Source of the DNA: a virus
Direction: 5' to 3' (one strand)
Virus record (IMG/VR): IMGVR_UViG_3300022514_000002
Span: 1 to 23,393 of that record
DNA: 23,393 nucleotides
Below, in pieces: positions 10,605-22,095 of this stretch. The notes beneath the pieces were generated by a model that was not told the origin of the DNA, made no database searches, and was given only the letters and a program-made list of their open reading frames with translations. Made by a program: the position numbers and the translations under genes. The first letter of the stretch is position 1, and each line of letters opens with the position of its first letter.

Positions 10605-10919
10605 TCAGTTTTCTATTATTTGCTTTTGCCATAGCTTTCCGTTTTCAAATGTAATTTGAATAAATGTTTTCCCGGCTTGCCACATAATCATGCGGTGAAC
10701 TACTTTTTGTCCTGGCATTATTTCAGATTCTGCAGTACTGTCGGAAACTATCTTAAAACCAGAAAGAATTTCTGCGACTTCTTCATAACTCATTCCGGTT
10801 TTAAGCTTACTATAGGCAGTTTGTGCATCAATTTTTGTTTTTTCAGTGTTGTTGTTTCCACAACTCACTACAAAGAAAAGGAACAATACAGTTAACATTA
10901 AAACAAAGTATTTCTTCAC
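10605..10919 (-). CDS. Small lipoprotein, SmpA/BLIP-like fold; candidate superinfection-exclusion moron
   Basis: Encodes 104 residues on the strand opposite to all neighbours. It has a lipoprotein signal peptide: MKKYF, a hydrophobic run (VLMLTVLFLFFVV) and a lipobox ending SC at Cys20. The mature part has the motif YSKLKTGMSYEEVAEIL, typical of SmpA/OmlA or BLIP-like domains, and a last strand pair (FIQITFENGKLWQKQI). The start is GTG at 10917-10919 with a strong ribosome site (AAAGGAGGTGA). It has its own terminator. A TAAGAT at 10946-10951 on this strand could be a weak -10. Such self-contained genes in a tail operon are morons expressed from the prophage; an outer-surface lipoprotein next to the tape measure suggests blocking of DNA entry by related phages. 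That role is inference. Confidence 0.85.
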   Translation of the reverse strand: MKKYFVLMLTVLFLFFVVSCGNNNTEKTKIDAQTAYSKLKTGMSYEEVAEILSGFKIVSDSTAESEIMPGQKVVHRMIMWQAGKTFIQITFENGKLWQKQIIEN

Positions 10920-10978
10920 TTTTTCACCTCCTTTTGATGTCTCTAATCTTATTTTACCAGAAAAGTAGGTGTTTTGCT

Positions 10979-13858
10979 ATGGCGACAGTAGGAACTTTTC
11001 ATGTAGCATTAACAGCTTCAACAGGACGTTTTGTAGGAGGGCTGTCACAAGCTGAACGCAGATGGGATAAATTTGTTCGCAGCATTCAAAGAGATGCAAA
11101 ATTACTACCCGAAACAATCCGAAAAGCCACATCTGCTTCATTAGCTTTGTTACGACTAGTAGTAAAATTTGGTGCCGCTGGTATAGCAATTACTACTGGA
11201 TTGGGATTGGTAGGGATTAAACTTGCTGCAAACTTTGAGCAGACAAGAATAGCATTTACAACGCTTTTAGGGGATGTTCAAAAGGCAAATGCTTTTTTGC
11301 ATGAATTAGTAGAATTTTCCGCAAGGACACCTTTCCGGTTTACAGGCGTTACTCAAGCTGCAAGACAATTATTAGCATACGGGTTTGCAGCTGAAGAAGT
11401 TTTACCAACACTTACAGCAGTTGGCGACGCAGTAGCAGCATTAGGTGGAGGGCAAGAAGGAATCAAACGTGCCGTACTAGCTTTAGGTCAAATGCGAGCA
11501 AAGGGTAAACTCGCAGGAGAAGAAATGCGCCAGTTGACTGAGCTTGGAATCCCTGCATGGGAAATGTTAGCAGAATCTATTGGAGTTAGTATTCCTGAAG
11601 CAATGAAATTAGTAGAAAAACGGGCTATTACTGCGTCGCAAGGTATTGCTGCTATTTTGGCGGGAATTAATCGCAGATTTGCTGGTGCTATGGATGTGCA
11701 GTCAAAAACTTTATTAGGGCGCCTTTCTACCTTACGTGACAACATCGAAATTATCCTGCGTGGGATGGGTGAGGACATAATCCGGTTAACTGACTTGGGT
11801 AGGCGAATAGATAGATTAACAAGTGCACTTAGTAGATTTGCAGCTATCGTAATAGAAAAAGGGTTCGTGAATGCTTTACGTGAAGCTTTCCCAGTTTGGT
11901 TAATTCCAATAATTGTTACTATTGCTGGCGCAATTACAGGAGCTTTAGTTCCAGCAATTACATTAGCCGCCGTTGCAATGACTAAAAAATTATTAGTATC
12001 CATGGGGCTAAGTATCGCGGTTTTATGGAAATGGGCATTGATAGGGGCTGCAGTTGCTTTAGTTGCCTATGTCGTTGCAAAGGCATGGGGACGCTTGGGA
12101 GATATAGCAAAAGCTGTATGGATGAGCATTAGTGCTGTTGTACTTTTTGCAGCAAGTCTTGTCGTCAGTGGTGTTGGTGCAATATTAACAGCATTATCTT
12201 GGATAATTCCGGCTTTAAGTAGAGCGGCACGGGCAGTGCATAATTTTGCGGCAAGTCTGCGTCAATCTGCAGCTTCCGCTTGGACGGCTGCAAAAAGCGG
12301 ATTTACTGGAGTTCAGCAGACTAAAGCAATAGCAAAATCTACGGAGAATGTTGCTAAGACTGCACAAGCCGCCGCAGAGTCTCAAGAACAATTTGGCGAT
12401 TCAATAAAAAAGGCTGGTGAAAGTGCAGCAAAGAATTTACAATCGTTCGATGAAGTCCACACCATAGAGGAAAAAATAGCAAGTTCTGCATCGGGATTGG
12501 ATGTATCTCAGTTAGAGTTAGATGTACCCGATATTGTTCCTTCTATTAATCCAATCAATGCTGCTGTCGCTCAGATGGGTGAGCAAATAAGCAAGGTGGC
12601 CGAAACAGCTTCAAGTGCTTGGGAAAGATTAAAGCAGGCAATGGAGCCGGTAAACCGGGCTGTACAGTGGATTAAAGATAATTGGCCGACAATTGGGCCG
12701 ATAGTACAAACAATAGCGGGACTTATTACAGCATTCTTAATTCCGGCATTAATCAAAAGCGGAATTGAAGCAATGATAGCCGCAGGAAAGCATGTTATAG
12801 CTTGGGGTATGAAAGCTGGTGCGGCTCTTATTCACGGAGCGGTAGTAATCGGTCAACTAATCCTTGTTGGTATTAAATGGGCATGGTTAGGCGTTCAAGC
12901 GCTTGTAAATGCCGGTAAAGTAGTATTGGCATGGGGTATGCAGGGCTGGGAAGCCGCTAAGTCAGTAGCAATTCAAATAGCACAGTTTGTAATTTTAGTT
13001 GCTAAGTGGGCATGGCTCGGGGTACAAGCTCTCATTAATGCCGGTAAAGTAGTACTGGCGTGGATAATACAGCAAGGGCCAGCAATAGCAGCAGCTGCGA
13101 CCACAGCTGCATCTGCTGCGATAATTGTAGGAAAATGGATTTGGATGGCAACAACTTCCACAGCTAACGCTGTTGTTATGGCTGCTTCGTGGTTTATTGC
13201 TCTTGGCCCTGTGGCTTGGGTAATAGCAACCATTGCACTTGTGGCAACAGTTGTGGCACTGAACTGGGATTTTGTAAAAACAAAAACGATTGAAATCTGG
13301 AATACTGTGAGTACTTGGCTTGCAGAAAAATGGAATAACATAAGTGAAAAACTAACTTCAATTTGGAGCGGGATAAGAGATATAGCAAAACAAAAATGGG
13401 AAAGCGTAAAGGACATAATTCGAGGGGTGTTGAACGATATAATTAGCATCATCAACCGTTTTATCCGTTTCTGGAACAAGATAGAGTTTAAAGTACCCAG
13501 CATGAATTTGCCACTTATTGGGCAGGTAGGCGGCTGGACAGTAGGCGTGCCTAAGATTCCTGAGATACCGATGTTAGCAAAAGGTGGTATTGTAACTGCG
13601 CCAACATTAGCTGTAATTGGTGAACGTGGGCCTGAAGTAGTAAAGCCGTTACCGAGAGCTGAACAGGAGGCGGATGCAATTGCCAGAGCAGTCTATGCAG
13701 CTATTATTGACGCTATGCGCTTTGTACAGCCTGAGCAGGGAGAAAGGGAAATTGTTATACAGCTTGACGGAACAAAGATAGCAAGAGTCATTTTACCAGC
13801 ATTAGTACGAGAAGGACAGCGTGTAGGCATGCCGATTATATCAGGGACGGTGATATAA
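10979..13858 (+). CDS. Tape measure protein
   Basis: Encodes 959 residues and sets tail length. The N-terminal tape-measure domain (about 84-190) is clear: ANFEQTRIAFTTLLGD, HELVEFSARTPFRF, QLLAYGF, then GKLAGEEMRQLTELGIPAWEML. Next come long hydrophobic helices that may insert in the host membrane at DNA entry, including a 43-residue repeat from about 590 to 760. The C-terminus has the common GGIVTAPTLAVIGERGPEVV segment. The frame is open back to 10823, but that stretch is antisense to the lipoprotein gene; the ATG at 10979 after AGTAGGTG begins the normal N-terminus MATVGTFHVALTAS. The gene ends as the next begins. Confidence 0.95.
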   Translation: MATVGTFHVALTASTGRFVGGLSQAERRWDKFVRSIQRDAKLLPETIRKATSASLALLRLVVKFGAAGIAITTGLGLVGIKLAANFEQTRIAFTTLLGDVQKANAFLHELVEFSARTPFRFTGVTQAARQLLAYGFAAEEVLPTLTAVGDAVAALGGGQEGIKRAVLALGQMRAKGKLAGEEMRQLTELGIPAWEMLAESIGVSIPEAMKLVEKRAITASQGIAAILAGINRRFAGAMDVQSKTLLGRLSTLRDNIEIILRGMGEDIIRLTDLGRRIDRLTSALSRFAAIVIEKGFVNALREAFPVWLIPIIVTIAGAITGALVPAITLAAVAMTKKLLVSMGLSIAVLWKWALIGAAVALVAYVVAKAWGRLGDIAKAVWMSISAVVLFAASLVVSGVGAILTALSWIIPALSRAARAVHNFAASLRQSAASAWTAAKSGFTGVQQTKAIAKSTENVAKTAQAAAESQEQFGDSIKKAGESAAKNLQSFDEVHTIEEKIASSASGLDVSQLELDVPDIVPSINPINAAVAQMGEQISKVAETASSAWERLKQAMEPVNRAVQWIKDNWPTIGPIVQTIAGLITAFLIPALIKSGIEAMIAAGKHVIAWGMKAGAALIHGAVVIGQLILVGIKWAWLGVQALVNAGKVVLAWGMQGWEAAKSVAIQIAQFVILVAKWAWLGVQALINAGKVVLAWIIQQGPAIAAAATTAASAAIIVGKWIWMATTSTANAVVMAASWFIALGPVAWVIATIALVATVVALNWDFVKTKTIEIWNTVSTWLAEKWNNISEKLTSIWSGIRDIAKQKWESVKDIIRGVLNDIISIINRFIRFWNKIEFKVPSMNLPLIGQVGGWTVGVPKIPEIPMLAKGGIVTAPTLAVIGERGPEVVKPLPRAEQEADAIARAVYAAIIDAMRFVQPEQGEREIVIQLDGTKIARVILPALVREGQRVGMPIISGTVI
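12875..13132 (+). repeat. 129-bp (43-residue) repeat inside the tape measure gene
   Basis: Two complete units start at 12875 and 13004, each coding KWAWLGVQAL(V/I)NAGKVVLAW and then a hydrophobic spacer. A third, diverged start (KWIWM) follows at 13133. A weaker earlier unit (MIAAGKHVIAWGMKAG) precedes. The DNA itself is still similar between units, for example in aatgccggtaaagtagta, so the duplication is fairly recent. Confidence 0.8.
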
Positions 13859-13859
13859 T

Positions 13860-14204
13860 GTGCTAAGGGTTGAGGGAATATTACTGCCTAATCCGTCTAA
13901 GTTAGAAGTAGGAGAATTTGATATTTCAAAAGCAAAGCGAACAGCAAGTGGTTTAATGGTAATGGATATAATCACAACAAAAAAGAGAATTGACGTGGAG
14001 TGGCACATGATAACGGACGACGAATTAGCACAGATTCTATATGCAGTGAAATTGCGTCGTCCGTTTTTTTCTGTGCAATTTCCTTTCGCTGGAGGAACTC
14101 AAACGATAACGTGCTATTTAGGTGATAGGCAGCTGGGGTTGTGGCATACTCGGAATGGAGTGAGGTATTGGGAGAACGTCAAGATGGCGTTCATTGAGAG
14201 GTGA
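13860..14204 (+). CDS. Small distal-tail protein (DUF6711-like)
   Basis: Encodes 114 residues between the tape measure and the hub gene. It is mostly beta: LRVEGILLPNPSKLEVGEFDIS, then RIDVEWHMITDDELAQILYAV, FFSVQFPFAGGTQTITCYLGD and a final strand. It fits small tail proteins of Firmicute phages that I associate with DUF6711; a role as a distal-tail collar is inferred from position. GTG at 13860 follows AGGGACGGTGAT, and the start overlaps the region of the tape-measure stop. A diverged partial copy of its C-terminal 80 residues occurs at 14589-14846, which is important for reading the rearrangement downstream. Confidence 0.75.
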   Translation: MLRVEGILLPNPSKLEVGEFDISKAKRTASGLMVMDIITTKKRIDVEWHMITDDELAQILYAVKLRRPFFSVQFPFAGGTQTITCYLGDRQLGLWHTRNGVRYWENVKMAFIER

Positions 14205-14209
14205 TAGAA

Positions 14210-14650
14210 TTGTACCCTGTAACGCAGGACTTTTTGGACAAAGTAAAATCAACAGAAAGAAGAATACACGCTAAAGTCCAAATCGACTACACAGACCCCT
14301 TCCTTGACCAATCTATTAAAGTCCAAGCCTCCGAACAAGCGAATGTCTCATACCCAGCCCAAACCGCCGACACCGTATCCGAGCCTTTCGCAAAGATAGC
14401 ATCCTTGGACGGTAGCTGGGTGCTGGACGGCAGCTTTGCACTTGCACCAGACCCCGAGGAAGCCGAAACGCACCAAATGGGTTGGTGGGGGTCGCAGTTG
14501 GCACAGGCAGACGGAACATTCGTGCAGCCATATCCTAGCTTGACAGTGACGCACTTCGCAAGGCCGATACATTCCCTGCGAGTAGTAGGCGACAGCAAGC
14601 GGGAAAATGGTAAAAGACATAATAGCAATAAAGAAGAAAATTCAGTTTAG
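14210..14650 (+). pseudogene. Truncated N-terminus of the resident tail-hub gene
   Basis: Begins YPVTQDFLDKVK, the same opening as the complete hub protein at 14856 (YPVTQDFLEAIR), and continues with a beta-domain (SLDGSWVLDGSFALAPDPEE, MGWWGSQLAQA, VTHFARPIHSLRVVGDSK). In relatives, as I recall them, this protein runs for many hundred residues; here homology stops near 14603 and the frame ends after a 15-residue nonsense tail (NGKRHNSNKEENSV) read across a junction. The TTG at 14210 aligns with the hub start; GAGAGGTGAT precedes it. A matching internal piece of what looks like the same gene is found 6 kb downstream at 20671-20920. It may still be translated but cannot be a working hub. Confidence 0.75.
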
Positions 14651-14846
14651 ATACGATGGGCTTACCGCTGCGAGTTTTAATTTATTCCAAACATATTACG
14701 AAGCAGGTAAGCCCGTTAATTTTATATATGATGAAGCAGGGCAAACAAAAACAATACAGTGCTATATATCTGAAATGCCACGACAGTTATTCGTTCACAA
14801 TACGAATTATGTCAGCAATATAACAATTACGCTTGAAGAAGTGTAG
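14589..14846 (+). pseudogene. C-terminal fragment of a second DUF6711-like distal-tail gene
   Basis: This frame (open from 14589; first ATG 14607) aligns throughout with the C-terminal 80 residues of the protein at 13860: TASGKMVKDII against TASGLMVMDII, KKKIQF against KKRIDV, GQTKTIQCYIS against GTQTITCYLG, and matching ends. The N-terminal third is missing because the frame enters from the truncated hub gene, in another frame. ATG 14607 has no good ribosome site. It is read as the left edge of an imported tail block. It overlaps the last 44 bases of the truncated hub gene. Confidence 0.75.
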
Positions 14847-16217: not shown

Positions 16218-16243
16218 AATAAATAAAGAAGGAGGAGATGAAA

Positions 16244-16870
16244 ATGGCATCTTTACTACGTGACGATCTTGGTCTTCCAATTCCACAGTATCGAACTGAA
16301 GATGGAACAGCGTTTGAACCTCTAACTGGCAGTAGCGGTGCAATGTTTATTCGAAAGAAGGACGGACATGATGTCGCACTCGGTGCGACTACTGACGCAG
16401 AAGCAGCCGACGGCAACGGCTCAGTAATTGCGCTACTGAAGAACCTTCGTACGCGCCTCAGTAGAGTAGAGACCGTACTCAACACGCTACTCGATCCGAC
16501 ATCGAATGGGTTGAAGCTCGCACCGCGTCAGCCTGTAGAGATTGTAACTCACAATGAACTTGCGATCCGAGATACAGGTAACTACAACTCTGGATTAATT
16601 GATGTTCGTCCGATTTCCGGTAGAAAGTACTTTCGAGTAATCAATGGCTGCGATCAACCGATGACATTAAAGCTTTTAGTCTACAGCCTAACAGATCTTT
16701 TAGGTCCAATATACAGTACTACGATTGCTGCTAACACGAGTACTCTGGTGACAGCGACGGAAATTCCCATACTCGCTGAGCCGTTAACTCAAATTGAAGT
16801 ACAAGTTAGATTCGACACCGCACCGACGACGGGTGCCGTAAAGGTTCAGTTATGTGGGATTCCTGCATAA
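16244..16870 (+). CDS. Tail-tip structural protein with coiled coil, unknown family
   Basis: Encodes 208 residues. Residues 1-60 contain RTEDGTAFEPLTGSSG, and 62-88 an amphipathic helix (ALLKNLRTRLSRVETVLNTLL) that could form a trimeric coiled coil. The rest is beta-rich (KYFRVINGCDQPMTLKLLVYS and VQVRFDTAP). This head-stalk-blade order suggests a small fibre or an adaptor that links a fibre to the hub; that is inference. ATG 16244 follows AGGAGGAG at the correct distance, and ATG 16238 lies inside that site. Arginine codons are mainly CGN, somewhat unlike the packaging genes. Confidence 0.7.
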   Translation: MASLLRDDLGLPIPQYRTEDGTAFEPLTGSSGAMFIRKKDGHDVALGATTDAEAADGNGSVIALLKNLRTRLSRVETVLNTLLDPTSNGLKLAPRQPVEIVTHNELAIRDTGNYNSGLIDVRPISGRKYFRVINGCDQPMTLKLLVYSLTDLLGPIYSTTIAANTSTLVTATEIPILAEPLTQIEVQVRFDTAPTTGAVKVQLCGIPA

Positions 16871-16888: not shown

Positions 16889-17656
16889 ATGTTGGAGGTT
16901 ACGTATTCTTTCGATGAGAACGTTCTGATTAACGGTTCAGCTGAGATGGGCCTGTCTGGTTGGGAAGCAAGTGGACTCGTAGAGAGTGTAACAGGAGGAG
17001 TCTCCTCACGATGCTTTGAGCTAAATGCGAATTCGAGTCTTCGACAGACTCTTCACTTAGCACGCAATGTAGATGTCTTCAAGTTATCAGCATATATGGG
17101 TGCGCCTGAAATTGCACCACCTTGCCAGCTTCCAAGCAGCTTAGTACTAGAAATTTACTACACAGACGGAACCTGCTCGAAGACTGTTGTTCCGTTTGTT
17201 GTAACTTTGAATGACATCGTTACTGGCATTGTCAACGGGGCTGAAATCCAGTTTTACTACTTTGAGGCGATCCAGAAAGTGGAGAAGAAGGAGTTCGCAT
17301 CGATTGTCGTAGAGATCTCTACTGGAGCACTAGACAGGCCCATCTATGTCGATGAGGTCTCACTACAGCCGAATATACAGCTTCAAACACAGGTTGCCGA
17401 AACAGACGTTCCGGAAACTGTATACTATAGAACACACTCGATAGATAGTCAGGTCGTTACGATTGTGTTTCCGACTTCTTTCGCTTTAGAGCCTTCGGTT
17501 CTTGTCAGTGTTTATGGAGATGTAACTCAGTTTACTCCGGAATTTATAGTAGAATGGTCTGAGGAACAAAACGCATACATGTATACGAAGCTTAATCTAT
17601 CTTTTCCTGAAACGTATATTGGTAAGCATTTCGCAATCTTGGTAATCGGAAGATGA
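16889..17656 (+). CDS. Tail-tip protein with carbohydrate-binding-like jelly roll
   Basis: Encodes 255 residues. The start (LINGSAEMGLSGWEASG) is the typical opening of CBM-type or discoidin-like jelly rolls, which read N-G-x-x-E-x-G-x-x-G-W. Strands follow to a late YVDEVSLQP, the usual closing strand of that domain, at about residues 10-170. The C-terminal 80 residues (TVYYRTHSIDSQVVTIVF onward) form a second beta-domain. No catalytic motif is seen. Together with the enzyme-like gene that follows, it probably helps the tail bind a surface glycan. Domain type is by pattern only. ATG 16889 has a GAGAGAGGCG site upstream. Confidence 0.7.
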   Translation: MLEVTYSFDENVLINGSAEMGLSGWEASGLVESVTGGVSSRCFELNANSSLRQTLHLARNVDVFKLSAYMGAPEIAPPCQLPSSLVLEIYYTDGTCSKTVVPFVVTLNDIVTGIVNGAEIQFYYFEAIQKVEKKEFASIVVEISTGALDRPIYVDEVSLQPNIQLQTQVAETDVPETVYYRTHSIDSQVVTIVFPTSFALEPSVLVSVYGDVTQFTPEFIVEWSEEQNAYMYTKLNLSFPETYIGKHFAILVIGR

Positions 17657-17675
17657 TAGAAGGTTGGTGATCGCG

Positions 17676-20672
17676 TTGGCGATATTGTATAACGTCGTTC
17701 TCTGCTATCACGGTTTTGCTGAGCAGCCACTTACGTTCCGATCGAGATTAGAGGATTTCCAAGCCCAAGTTCAACATTTGCAAGAGCTAGGCTATACATT
17801 CAAGAAACCGAGTGAAGCAGCTCAGCAACTGGGTAACCTAAGTTGCATAGCATGCATCATCTTTGACGACGCACTAGACTCAATCACTCCAGCGCTAGAT
17901 TGGCTCGTCGAACATCACATTCCGTTTGGTATCGCCGTCATTGCGCGCCGCTTGCGGAAACTTGACCCAGAGAGCGGCTTTATGTCCTGGGAGACGTTAA
18001 AATACTATCTGCAAACAGGTCTGTGTGAGCTAGTTAATCACACGTACAATCTACACCACCTAACATTGCGGATGGGAGAGAGTGGTATAGATGGAGCACC
18101 AATCCTTGAAGGTCCGAGTTGGATTCCAGACGGTGATTTTGTATATATTTCTGCCGATGACTCTCGATGGTATTGGGATCTTACATTCGTCGATGACTAT
18201 GCATGGGGTTTCCCAATCTTTGGAACTGATCCGAACACGCAAGAAACGATTCGCTCAACGTTGCGTTTCAAAGCGAAAAAGTCTGTGACAGTAAACGAAA
18301 TTATCGTTTGGGCGTCTCTTCATTATCCATCTTCGAGTGGTTATGACGCACATGTTCGTATAACAATAAACGGCACGATCGTCAAAGATGGAATTATCTC
18401 TCCGCGGGCTTACGAAACACGCTTACAGTGGCAGGAACGAGAGTTTTTGCGTATTCCTCTTGACACTCCAGTAGACATCATCTCGGGTGAGACGGTTGAA
18501 ATTACATGGGAGACATTGAACGTCGGTAATGGTGCTTTTCAGATTTATGTAATTCCCGATGTCTCTGGAAACTACGAATTGATAACGACATGCACTAACA
18601 GAGACTACCCACCCAATGTAGTTTGGCCCGCACGACCAGCAATCATTCTAACGAGTGGCAGTGGTCGAGTAGCAACGGATGCGGAATACGAGCAGTATGT
18701 ACGACAAGACTTTGAAGCCTTCTACGACTCTCTTAAGAAATATCTCGGTGAGTGGTCCGTTGAGAGACTCTTCAATCCGCTTAAAACGGATCTTTATACA
18801 CTTGCTATAGCAGGAACATACAGTGATGGAAGTCTCGTAGATACGTACGTACGTGTGAGAGTATCGCGTACAGTGACCATTGAAGCTTTGAAGATTAAGT
18901 ACGCTGGTCAACTTGGTGAACGGTACGCCGCTGTTGTTGAAGTCTCCATTGGACAACGCACTGGAGTTGGAGAGTATACTAACCCTACAGTAATAGCAAC
19001 CTTTACACCGAACTGGCACTTGTGGCATTGGCAGACTATCAACATTACCCCGATTACACTCTACGAGGGAGTTGACTACTACTTACGCTTCCGGACTCTC
19101 AATCAGAGTCCGTTCGGACAGGGAGTACTACAGCTCTACCTCGATCAACAGCGTCCACCGGAACCGAAGTGGGACGTAGTAGGCTATGATTTGCAAGGAA
19201 ACCCGATTTACGGCTGGATTCTCCCTGATCCATCTGAGTATAATCACGAAGACTGGTTCGTAGTGACTGAACCTGAAGGAACGGCTGTCTATCCAGACGG
19301 AGTCTATGTGGACCACAATAGTGACTGGCAGTGGCTGATCGAGTCTCCTTATGACGGTCCTGGAAAGGCATTCATTGAATTATGGGCAGTCTCAGAAGAA
19401 GCTTCTCCACCGCCGGTTTTGACGATGGCGTATCCATTTGGAGCGTATTACGAGATAGGAACAGGAGGGACGTATATTCCGCCAAATCCGCAACTCATAA
19501 ATCCGGCACTTCAGCGCATCTTAAACGACTTCGGCATCCAAGCTGGATGGACGATCACACCAACAAGATTCAGAGACGGGTTATTAGAGCCGACGCTGCG
19601 AGTAGATCAGTATACTCTGCCTCGACTATTGATCTACGGAGACGTGCCGCTCGATACAATCCTGAACAATCTGGATGCTTATATTGGAATTACATGGAAA
19701 CAAACATTTCAAAATGATGTTATATGGCAAGTTGCAGTAGAGTACGATCAATATTACAACGCTACCGTGAGACTCAGTAAGGTTGATCTGGTATGTTTTG
19801 ACGCGTACTTTTTTCGAATTCCAAACTCTATTGTTAAAGGACCGATTAACACATCCGATCGAGAGATTCTGCGACAACAAGGCAAGAAGCAGTTGATAAT
19901 TTTCTCAAACTATGATGATACAATCGATGAGCCTAATCCGGAAATTGCACGTCATGTTCTTGAAAACCCTGATGTGTTTATAGACAAAATTGACAAGATT
20001 GTAATGACCGAAGAGTGGGATGGGGCTAATGTGAACCTCGAGTGGGTACCTCCAGACCTCCGTGAAGCTGCGAACCGGTTTGTACAGCTTCTCGCTGAGA
20101 GACTAATTCCAAAAAAGAAGTTGATAATGATAAACTGCCCGGCAATAACTGGAACAAATTATGATGATCCTAATTGGACTGGGTGGTGTGACTATGCGAC
20201 ACTCGTAAAATACGTCCATCTACTGAAGATTATGACTTACACTGAGAGTGGAGAGTTTGGCCCTCCAGCGCCACATGCTCCTACGGACTTCTTCAATGCA
20301 GTTTACGAGTACGTCAAGAAAACTATTCCGCCTCGTTTCCGGGCTAGGGTACTAGTTGAAGCGAACGCATTTGGCCATCTCTGGACGGACAAAGACGTCG
20401 AATATGTAGACTTTCACGAAGCGTTGCTAAATGCAATTCTGCACGGTGCTGCAATTGAAGAGAAAGACGGAGAAGCGCACTGGCAAGCAAGCAATTACGA
20501 AAGCTACTTCGGAAGCCCTTTAACAATTTCAAGAGCATATGACATCGCACTCACCCAAGGATTTGCTGGAGTCGCCGTCTGGAAAGCTGATGACGGTGAT
20601 GTACTGCAACACTATCCAAAAGCGTTAGGAATCCGCCGAGCGAAATTGAATTGGCATATCAAGAACATATAA
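17676..20672 (+). CDS. Bifunctional tail enzyme: split CE4 deacetylase plus GH18-like domain
   Basis: Encodes 998 residues. Residues 5-130 match the start of a PgaB/IcaB-like CE4 polysaccharide deacetylase: VVLCYHGF, the FDD pair (catalytic base D64, metal ligand D65) and H122/H127 in NHTYNLHH, the H-x4-H spacing of PgaB. The CE4 domain is interrupted by beta-sandwich segments (about 132-325 and 358-580); between them is its helix EYEQYVRQDFEAFYDSLKKYLG (334-355), and motif 3 (YPFGAY) comes at 586. Residues about 700-980 look like a GH18 barrel: KIVMTEEWDGANVNLE with the acid E789, KIMTYTE near 853 and GVAVWKADDGD near the end. TTG 17676 fits AAGGTTGGTGATC; GTG 17667 or TTG 17664 are possible. 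As the last gene of the tail block it is probably a glycan-degrading receptor-binding or tip enzyme. Activity is unproven. Confidence 0.8.
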   Translation: MAILYNVVLCYHGFAEQPLTFRSRLEDFQAQVQHLQELGYTFKKPSEAAQQLGNLSCIACIIFDDALDSITPALDWLVEHHIPFGIAVIARRLRKLDPESGFMSWETLKYYLQTGLCELVNHTYNLHHLTLRMGESGIDGAPILEGPSWIPDGDFVYISADDSRWYWDLTFVDDYAWGFPIFGTDPNTQETIRSTLRFKAKKSVTVNEIIVWASLHYPSSSGYDAHVRITINGTIVKDGIISPRAYETRLQWQEREFLRIPLDTPVDIISGETVEITWETLNVGNGAFQIYVIPDVSGNYELITTCTNRDYPPNVVWPARPAIILTSGSGRVATDAEYEQYVRQDFEAFYDSLKKYLGEWSVERLFNPLKTDLYTLAIAGTYSDGSLVDTYVRVRVSRTVTIEALKIKYAGQLGERYAAVVEVSIGQRTGVGEYTNPTVIATFTPNWHLWHWQTINITPITLYEGVDYYLRFRTLNQSPFGQGVLQLYLDQQRPPEPKWDVVGYDLQGNPIYGWILPDPSEYNHEDWFVVTEPEGTAVYPDGVYVDHNSDWQWLIESPYDGPGKAFIELWAVSEEASPPPVLTMAYPFGAYYEIGTGGTYIPPNPQLINPALQRILNDFGIQAGWTITPTRFRDGLLEPTLRVDQYTLPRLLIYGDVPLDTILNNLDAYIGITWKQTFQNDVIWQVAVEYDQYYNATVRLSKVDLVCFDAYFFRIPNSIVKGPINTSDREILRQQGKKQLIIFSNYDDTIDEPNPEIARHVLENPDVFIDKIDKIVMTEEWDGANVNLEWVPPDLREAANRFVQLLAERLIPKKKLIMINCPAITGTNYDDPNWTGWCDYATLVKYVHLLKIMTYTESGEFGPPAPHAPTDFFNAVYEYVKKTIPPRFRARVLVEANAFGHLWTDKDVEYVDFHEALLNAILHGAAIEEKDGEAHWQASNYESYFGSPLTISRAYDIALTQGFAGVAVWKADDGDVLQHYPKALGIRRAKLNWHIKNI

Positions 20673-20946
20673 CAGCTATTTTAGCGGAACAGATAACAAA
20701 ATTTACGTCCAACCCGGACGGTCAGAAGAAATTGTAACAACGCATGATATTGTGTATGCGTATTTATACGAGGCAGATAATGCAACAAAACTGGAATACG
20801 TCCCGCTAGGCACATTTTGGAGCGGGGATTGGACTACTCCTGAAGATTCTATTTATGCACAAACGACAGGCCGGGACAGGCTAGAGCTTTTGCGGAAGTC
20901 CACCTACAGCACGTCGCAGGTGCAGCAGAACAAGAAGCGAAAATAG
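20650..20946 (+). pseudogene. Stranded internal piece of the resident tail-hub gene
   Basis: The frame is open from 20650 with its only usable start a GTG at 20752 lacking a clear ribosome site. It encodes YVQPGRSEEIVTTHDIVYAYL, EYVPLGTFWSGDW and TTGRDRLELLRKSTYSTSQV, the internal hub segment that corresponds to YVPLGVFW and YDRLYELL of the intact protein at 14856. Homology stops near 20920, and the frame then runs only nine residues to a stop. Together with 14210-14603 it marks the two sides of an imported block. It is probably not functional. Confidence 0.7.
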
Positions 20947-20986: not shown

Positions 20987-21391
20987 ATGAAGTACGAAAA
21001 TATATCCAAGACAATCTGTAGTGTTGGAGGCGCTCTTGCCTCCTATCTTTTTGGGGGGTGGAGCGCGTTGCTAGAAATATTGTTGGCATTTGTGGCTATT
21101 GATTATATTACCGGTGTTATTGCTGCTGGCATAGAGGGAAAACTGAATAGTAGTATAGGTTGGAAGGGCATTGCTAAAAAAGTGGGCATATTTGTGATTG
21201 TGGCGGTTGCTAACCTTGTAGACAGGGCACTAGGCGATGCTCACATCTTTAGAGATGCAACTATATTTTTCTACCTTGCGAATGAGCTTTTGAGCATCAT
21301 AGAAAATACCGGCCGTATTGGACTGCCTGTGCCTGATGCGATACAGAAGGCTGTAGCGATATTAAAAGGGAAGGGAGATGTGAAACAATGA
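20987..21391 (+). CDS. Holin, phage_holin_4 (TcdE-like) family
   Basis: Encodes 134 residues with hydrophobic segments at about 12-32, 33-50 (ALLEILLAFVAIDYITGVIAAG), 66-80 (GIFVIVAVANLVD) and 90-103. The DYITGVIAAG motif, then the GLPVPDAIQKAVAILKG tail, identify the phage_holin_4 / toxin-secretion holin family, which opens the membrane for the endolysin at the end of infection. ATG follows AGGGAGG. Its stop overlaps the amidase start by four bases (ATGA), so the lysis pair is translationally coupled. Confidence 0.93.
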   Translation: MKYENISKTICSVGGALASYLFGGWSALLEILLAFVAIDYITGVIAAGIEGKLNSSIGWKGIAKKVGIFVIVAVANLVDRALGDAHIFRDATIFFYLANELLSIIENTGRIGLPVPDAIQKAVAILKGKGDVKQ

Positions 21392-22095
21392 TAGTGTGCA
21401 TTGACCCGGGACATGGAGGCAAAGACCCCGGCGCAAGTGGGAATGGTGTAATTGAAAAAGAAGTAACCCTTGATTTGGCATTTCGCATAAAAGATAAATT
21501 GCTTAAAAATTACGAGGGAGTAGAGATAATTTTGGCTCGCAGTAGTGATACTTACATCAGTTTAGAAGACAGAGCCAAAATAGCAAACGATGCGAATGCC
21601 GATTATTTTCACTCAATTCACATAAATGCAGCAGAAAATCTCGCAGCAAAAGGATATGAAGACTATATACACAGCAGCCTAACAGATGACTCAAAGACAG
21701 CAAAAATAAGAGACGTAATCCGTGAAGAAATTATAAACTATCTCAAAAATTATGGGATAGTTGACAGAGGGAAAAAGAAGGCCAATTTTGCCGTATTAAG
21801 ACTGACTAAGATGTCAGCAGTTTTGACAGAGAATTTATTTTTAACTAGTCCGGAAGAATCTGAGTTGCTAAAGAACGATAGCTTTTTAGACGGATTAGCC
21901 GACGCACATGCGAAGGGAATAGCGAAGGCCCTTAACTTACCGCAAAAGGCAAACACACCAACAACGGTAGCACAAAGCAATGTTTTATGGTTAGTGCAAT
22001 TGGGAGCATTCAAAAACAAGGAAAATGCAGAGAGGTTAGCAGCAGAATTAAAGAGCAAAGGTTATTCAGTTTTTATAAAGAAAGAGACAAGATAA
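21388..22095 (+). CDS. Endolysin: N-acetylmuramoyl-L-alanine amidase (Amidase_3) with partial SPOR tail
   Basis: Encodes 235 residues. Amidase_3 (about 1-183) has all zinc and catalytic positions: H9 (DPGHGG), E23 (VIEKE), H78 (HSIHINA) and E148 (VLTENLF). It cuts the bond between muramic acid and the stem peptide after the holin acts. The C-terminus (about 199-235, WLVQLGAFKNKENAERLAAELKSKGY) is the first half of a SPOR domain, which normally binds denuded glycan and is about 70 residues long; here it ends after one strand-helix-strand unit. The truncation may be a real variant or a recent loss. The family assignment is secure. Confidence 0.94.
   Translation: MIVCIDPGHGGKDPGASGNGVIEKEVTLDLAFRIKDKLLKNYEGVEIILARSSDTYISLEDRAKIANDANADYFHSIHINAAENLAAKGYEDYIHSSLTDDSKTAKIRDVIREEIINYLKNYGIVDRGKKKANFAVLRLTKMSAVLTENLFLTSPEESELLKNDSFLDGLADAHAKGIAKALNLPQKANTPTTVAQSNVLWLVQLGAFKNKENAERLAAELKSKGYSVFIKKETR

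Follow-up and report, generated by a model that had tools for sequence, protein, structure and literature searches.

We found that a phage tail gene encodes a CE4 deacetylase domain of the PgaB/IcaB type and a GH18-fold barrel in a single chain. As judged from profile searches and structure models, the CE4 domain is interrupted twice by beta-sandwiches of the carbohydrate-binding type. We propose with moderate confidence, from the sequence, the models and the analogy with PgaB, that the protein sits at the tail tip of the virion and acts on an extracellular poly-N-acetylglucosamine (PNAG)-type polymer, deacetylating and cutting it. The gene lies in IMG/VR record IMGVR_UViG_3300022514_000002, for which no genome kin are listed. 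This record was analysed over its whole stretch of 23,393 nt, hereafter the window. Relatives are given by L numbers.

The enzyme gene and its surroundings

By its sequence, the enzyme gene belongs to the tail block of a siphophage of the Bacillota type. The terminase of the window shares ~52% identity with that of Caldibacillus phage CBP1 and is close to those of Clostridioides phages. As shown in Table 1, the tape measure and hub-type genes lie upstream of the enzyme gene, and the holin and amidase genes follow directly downstream. The start codon of the enzyme gene is uncertain among three candidates (TTG17664, GTG17667 and TTG17676), and AGAAGG is found at 17658-17663. The 255-aa gene in front of it has a counterpart of ~250 aa in the syntenic relative L007.

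Table 1. Features of the tail and lysis region of the window and domains of the enzyme
Feature	Position	Strand	Evidence
Tape measure protein	10823..13858	+	PHROG 12798 4.9e-75
Tail hub/baseplate-type protein, 456 aa	14847..16217	+	PHROG 13879 7.6e-22; PHROG 6616 tail 2.5e-13
Tail-block gene, 210 aa, no function assigned	16238..16870	+	Counterpart of similar size in L007
Tail-block gene, 255 aa, upstream of enzyme	16889..17656	+	Weak minor-tail-protein match, PHROG 3475 0.00029
CE4/GH18 tail enzyme, 998 aa (998 codons), one open frame	17676..20672	+	Full-length relatives
CE4 barrel segment 1, residues 1-140: strand 1, motif 1 FDD 63-65, motif 2 H122/H127	17676..18095	+	
First inserted beta-sandwich, residues ~150-315, carbohydrate-binding-module type	18123..18620	+	All-beta in models; Foldseek
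CE4 barrel segment 2, residues ~316-360: strand and long helix	18621..18755	+	Colinear with uninterrupted CE4 when joined
Second inserted beta-sandwich, residues ~361-575	18756..19400	+	Models; Foldseek
CE4 barrel segment 3, residues ~576-668, motif 3 YPFGAY 586-591	19401..19679	+	Joined-segment profile
GH18-fold barrel, residues ~701-978; motif DGANVNLE 782-789, acid E789	19776..20609	+	Pfam; Foldseek; PDB profile
Holin, opens lysis module 3' of enzyme	20987..21391	+	Pfam Phage_holin_4_1 2.9e-43
Endolysin, Amidase_3 and SPOR domain	21388..22095	+	Pfam 8.9e-48 and 7.7e-10

Fragments resembling broken extra copies of tail genes flank the hub-enzyme block at 14201-14846 and 20662-20946. They include a truncated hub-like N-terminus and a second partial copy of a 114-aa tail gene, and a hub-like fragment is also found downstream of the enzyme gene, in the 20662-20946 region. 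These fragments may be marks of recombination. A small lipoprotein-like ORF on the opposite strand (10605-10919, -) adjoins the tape measure gene and is possibly a moron. The SPOR domain of the endolysin is partial; in cell-division proteins, SPOR binds denuded glycan strands.

Tail location

DUF2460, the domain of the RcGTA distal tail protein Rcc01695, was found at the C-terminus of eight distinct metagenomic relatives. The eight Pfam matches represent seven distinct proteins, because L020 duplicates L008, and the eighth protein, L025, was recognized by reading the sequence. The extension of the relatives matched TIGR02217 (distal tail protein, Rcc01695 family) at 1.5e-74 and the RcGTA distal tail protein in the PDB at 7.4e-57. 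Domain searches found no DUF2460 in the window protein, L007, PMBT3, the Acinetobacter protein L005 or L058. The tree, which takes in the metagenomic relatives with a complete gene, requires the fusion to have been gained or lost three times or more.

Unlike in these fusions, Rcc01695 of RcGTA stands alone, as a protein of ~210 aa. It forms a hexamer in which the N-terminus contacts the hub (PMC7296036). Since Rcc01695 is hexameric, a tail tip built with the fusion would, by analogy, be ringed by as many as six enzymes.

The gene order of the relatives was compared. In L016 it is tape measure, enzyme-Dit fusion, hub, NlpC/P60 and an Rcc01698-like gene. In the Bacillota prophage L058, Dit and Prophage_tail genes are followed by the enzyme, holin and amidase. 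A gene resembling the N-terminus of the T7 tail fibre lies directly or close upstream in the podoviral L023 and in the Acinetobacter elements, and the enzyme gene of L007 adjoins an amidase gene. At the sequence level, the tail placement of the family is strongly supported by the DUF2460 fusions, the tail-fibre anchors and the Dit/Tal pairs of the relatives. The initial annotation had placed the window gene in a tail-tip block, and this placement was borne out and strengthened by the eight distal-tail-protein fusions.

In the annotated phage records, stand-alone DUF2460 proteins often carry the name 'glycoside hydrolase', among them many distal tail proteins of ~200 aa from phages of Rhodobacter, Caulobacter and Paracoccus, for which it looks like an annotation error. 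Because they bear it so often, this label alone is no evidence for a fusion.

The CE4 domain and its split

Pfam CE4 matched the window protein at 0.002, below the gathering score. It exceeded this score in L007 and in L058, in which both Pfam domains did so (CE4 3.6e-14, GH18 1e-10). Residues 7-129 matched IcaB of Ammonifex degensii in the PDB (4wcj) at 2.1e-9. With the N-terminal family profile, five PDB sequences were matched, all of them PgaB/IcaB-type deacetylases. The NCBIfam PgaB profile TIGR03938 gave 38 bits for L012 (6.3e-10) and 19.5 bits for the window protein. The window protein was rejected as a PgaB equivalog, since it scores far below the curated cut-off of 321.9 bits and its C-terminus is GH18, not GH153.

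The motifs that the initial annotation had named (FDD 63-65, H122/H127, YPFGAY 586-591, DGANVNLE 782-789, KIMTYTE and GVAVW) were all confirmed at their residues. The five-residue spacing of the histidines, described there as that of PgaB, is the same in the matched PgaB/IcaB chains. D64, D65, H122 and H127 are kept in every family member covering the site. The row of a remote prophage is shifted by one column at DD in the alignment, and its sequence reads VFDDARAG.

The split was examined by joining the profiles of residues 1-140, 316-360 and 576-668 and searching them against 11 ordinary, uninterrupted CE4 proteins. Compared with segment 1 alone, the joined profile gained 106.9 bits summed over the 11 proteins; the gain was positive in all of them, and since several are close kin of one another, the summed bits do not amount to 11 independent tests. 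The joined profile spanned most of the 11 targets as a single colinear domain, the YPFGAY motif included. As controls, 60 joins of random segments drawn from the remainder of the same protein reached 18.0 bits or less, the wrong segment order gave 32.3 bits, and the uncut residues 1-668 gave -10.5 bits.

An AlphaFold model of residues 1-701 had a pTM of 0.76. Foldseek with this model retrieved PgaB (1.5e-8), IcaB (6.7e-8; 31% identity, 2.8 A) and BpsB. The matches of the inserted sandwiches were tandem CBM32/CBM22 modules and phage baseplate proteins. The loop at 589-604, after motif 3, had low pLDDT and was poorly modelled. These results show that the CE4 barrel is split, as had been proposed from the motifs. 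The structure prediction and fold search suggested at that time recovered both the CE4 and the GH18 barrel.

The GH18 barrel

Residues 766-972 matched Pfam GH18 at 4.1e-8, with 33.7 bits against a gathering score of 29.6. Foldseek on the GH18 model retrieved SleL (4s3k, 1.6e-19) and a Chromobacterium chitinase (5jh8, TM 0.80, target-normalised). The GH18 family profile matched YdhD in the PDB at 3.6e-22, together with chitinases and SleL. The GH18-like glycosidase domain of the initial annotation was upheld by the Pfam match above gathering and by these TIM-barrel matches.

The general acid E789 is invariant in the members covering the site, and D782 is kept. The motif has the form DGxxxNxE in the family. 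At the position of the third Asp of DxxDxDxE, 11 of the 16 members, the window protein included (N787), have Asn; three have Asp and two have Thr. GH85 was considered for the Asn-x-Glu pair and rejected, as no GH85 was among the Pfam matches at E<=10. Given the Asn or Thr at this position, some members could be poor hydrolases or lack this activity.

The Thr residues are found in L008 and L025 (DGIIATLE and DGIMATLE), which also have an extra inserted stretch before the GH18 strand; judged from the sequence, the hydrolase of this branch may be altered or inactive. In the podoviral protein L023:9974-13684, the GH18 part contains a long extra insertion, and its motif, DGAVVDIE, is canonical.

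Family and distribution

A single-sequence query against viral contigs gave no matches, and an alignment query was needed to find relatives. Apart from PMBT3, alignment-based scans gave roughly a dozen distinct viral relatives from metagenomes, and at least 15 distinct relatives have the same architecture. They comprise metagenomic siphoviruses and podoviruses, Pseudomonas phage PMBT3, two Acinetobacter phage-plasmids and the Bacillota prophage. The GH18 part alone, as a query against viral contigs, gave no additional contigs, so the CE4 and GH18 halves travel together in this family. A scan of 398 genomes from the phylum to which the Clostridia MAG behind L021 belongs gave one full-length protein, the prophage member; the other matches were mostly GH18-only. 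BFVD gave no full-length viral match.

L020 is a near-identical, 5'-truncated copy of L008 on a contig binned as Archaeoglobales, with 7 codon differences in 1213. Between L010 and L011, compared in the CE4-sandwich region only, there are 147 synonymous codon differences against 39 nonsynonymous ones, a pattern consistent with purifying selection. CE4 matches in the 'phage' records MT835655 and MT835718 were rejected, being ordinary bacterial deacetylases of ~300 aa beside housekeeping genes. A search for the IcaA/PgaC family in the lysogen did not discriminate, as this family gave matches in all control genomes.

Proposed function

In the PNAG-type reading, the twice-interrupted CE4 domain (DD64-65, H122, H127) would take off some of the N-acetyl groups, and the two inserted beta-sandwiches would grip the glycan chain. 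The GH18 barrel would cut at the remaining GlcNAc by substrate-assisted catalysis, with E789 as the acid. Placed on the tail tip, the enzyme would open the polysaccharide layer or keep hold of it, which would let the tail get through to the cell. The analysis shows which domains are present, how the CE4 domain is split, that the catalytic residues are conserved, that the gene lies among tail-tip genes and that relatives are fused to Dit; that the protein is in virions, that it is active, and on which polymer and in which sequence its two sites act, we infer. Because GH18 chemistry requires an intact N-acetyl group at subsite -1, the deacetylase and GH18 activities might work against each other if deacetylation is not patchy. 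In PgaB, the hydrolase depends on an active deacetylase when the polymer is made in situ, and the ends that it leaves are GlcN-GlcNAc-GlcNAc (PMC5933820); as PgaB shows this coupling, a deacetylate-then-cut logic is possible in the phage enzyme.

The main rival reading keeps the tail protein with its two enzymes but makes peptidoglycan the substrate. CE4 would deacetylate wall GlcNAc, and GH18 would cut the strand in a SleL-like manner during DNA entry. Both substrates are in play because the GH18 fold neighbours include the peptidoglycan enzymes SleL and YdhD, spore-cortex enzymes that are among the nearest GH18 structures by both fold and sequence. Peptidoglycan is found in Gram-negative and Gram-positive hosts alike, in keeping with the host spread, and the PMBT3 gene is annotated as peptidoglycan hydrolase/YvbX. 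However, the CE4 part is of the PgaB/IcaB kind and not of the PgdA kind, and relatives retain other proteins to deal with the wall, namely an NlpC/P60 tail protein, an endolysin or both. The Dit and tail-fibre anchor context also points to an outer role in adsorption. We regard action on peptidoglycan as somewhat unlikely.

In an extended form of the PNAG-type reading, the enzyme would be the phages' own functional counterpart of PgaB and would have spread through siphoviruses, podoviruses, phage-plasmids and prophages, whose hosts are Gram-negative as well as Gram-positive. The deacetylase would obligatorily act first, and the Asn-x-Glu GH18 would cut only partly deacetylated PNAG, so that at its tail tip the virion makes and cleaves its own substrate motif. 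This extension is tentative, and we consider it rather unlikely.

The state of the GH18 site bears on a further alternative, in which the protein is a receptor-binding protein built from enzyme folds. Binding by the CE4 and sandwich parts would then be what counts, and the GH18 barrel would have lost all or some of its activity. The third Asp is Asn or Thr in 13 of the 16 members, and the resemblance of the sandwiches to CBM32/CBM22 and phage baseplate proteins would suit a binding role. Yet E789 and all CE4 metal and base residues are kept in the members covering them, across an identity range of ~33-56%, and an Asn at the third-Asp position is a functional residue in GH85 enzymes. We consider this alternative improbable.

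It is very unlikely that the protein is a lysis or matrix-release enzyme instead of a tail component. In favour of this reading, the gene has the tail block on one side and the holin on the other; its neighbours include holin and amidase genes both in the window and in L058, and an amidase gene in L007. The reading is opposed by the distal-tail-protein fusion in eight relatives, the upstream tail-fibre anchor genes in the podoviral ones, and the start of the window protein at CE4 strand 1, which leaves no room for a signal peptide.

Comparison with known proteins

The likeness to PgaB noted in the initial annotation held for the layout and failed for the barrel. As in PgaB of E. coli and BpsB of Bordetella, an N-terminal CE4 domain of the same subfamily and a C-terminal sugar-hydrolase barrel are present in one chain. 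PgaB is a periplasmic export protein with an unsplit CE4 domain and a GH153 barrel, whereas the phage enzyme is a tail protein with a twice-split CE4 domain and a GH18-like barrel whose third motif residue is Asn. IcaB of A. degensii is the best sequence match of the CE4 part and shares the HTYxLH motif, but it is single-domain, uninterrupted and cellular. The closest solved GH18 structures, namely the N-acetylglucosaminidases SleL/YaaH and YdhD and small bacterial chitinases (5jh8), are cellular enzymes without CE4 and without a tail fusion.

TP84_26, a GH18-type protein of Geobacillus phage TP-84, is present in virions and strips the host capsule (PMC10131341, PMC10815759). Like the window gene, its gene is placed after the tail tip and before the holin. 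However, the sequence goes straight into GH18-like motifs, and TP84_26 was rejected as a CE4 + GH18 equivalent because no CE4 was found by profile. PMBT3 gp23 (AUM59625) is a full-length homologue with ~34% identity from a phage of Pseudomonas grimontii, but its host and tail context differ from those of the window, and its labels read 'peptidoglycan hydrolase' or 'minor tail protein'. In the PMBT3 genome paper, gp23 goes unmentioned in the main text, which contains no description of CE4 + GH18.

Tail proteins that deacetylate host polysaccharide have been described in other phages. The structural deacetylase of Acinetobacter phage Aristophanes is an O-deacetylating tailspike, for which chain cleavage is not described (PMC8471582). 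A structural tail deacetylase for the host polysaccharide is also described for Pectobacterium phage Possum (PMC9569702). RcGTA TspA was rejected as an equivalent, as the text mentions no deacetylase, GH18 or PNAG (PMC13420450). In the open-access literature, tail deacetylases and GH18 tail enzymes were found separately and not combined in one phage protein, in agreement with the earlier statement that no phage protein with this combination was known. PMBT3 was the only cultured phage carrying it among 50,697 phage records.

Phage depolymerases are usually pictured as beta-helical tailspikes with a single activity. In this family, two predicted successive polysaccharide-processing enzymes and two binding domains are present per chain, sometimes fused to a distal tail protein. 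The annotation 'peptidoglycan hydrolase YvbX' of the PMBT3 protein is thereby corrected. If active, the protein would be a ready-made anti-biofilm enzyme and would give a handle on how tailed phages pass through matrices of PNAG-like polymer, which is common to many unrelated bacteria. Its recurrence in viruses of very different bacteria suggests that it is probably a real and overlooked tool against the bacterial sugar coat.
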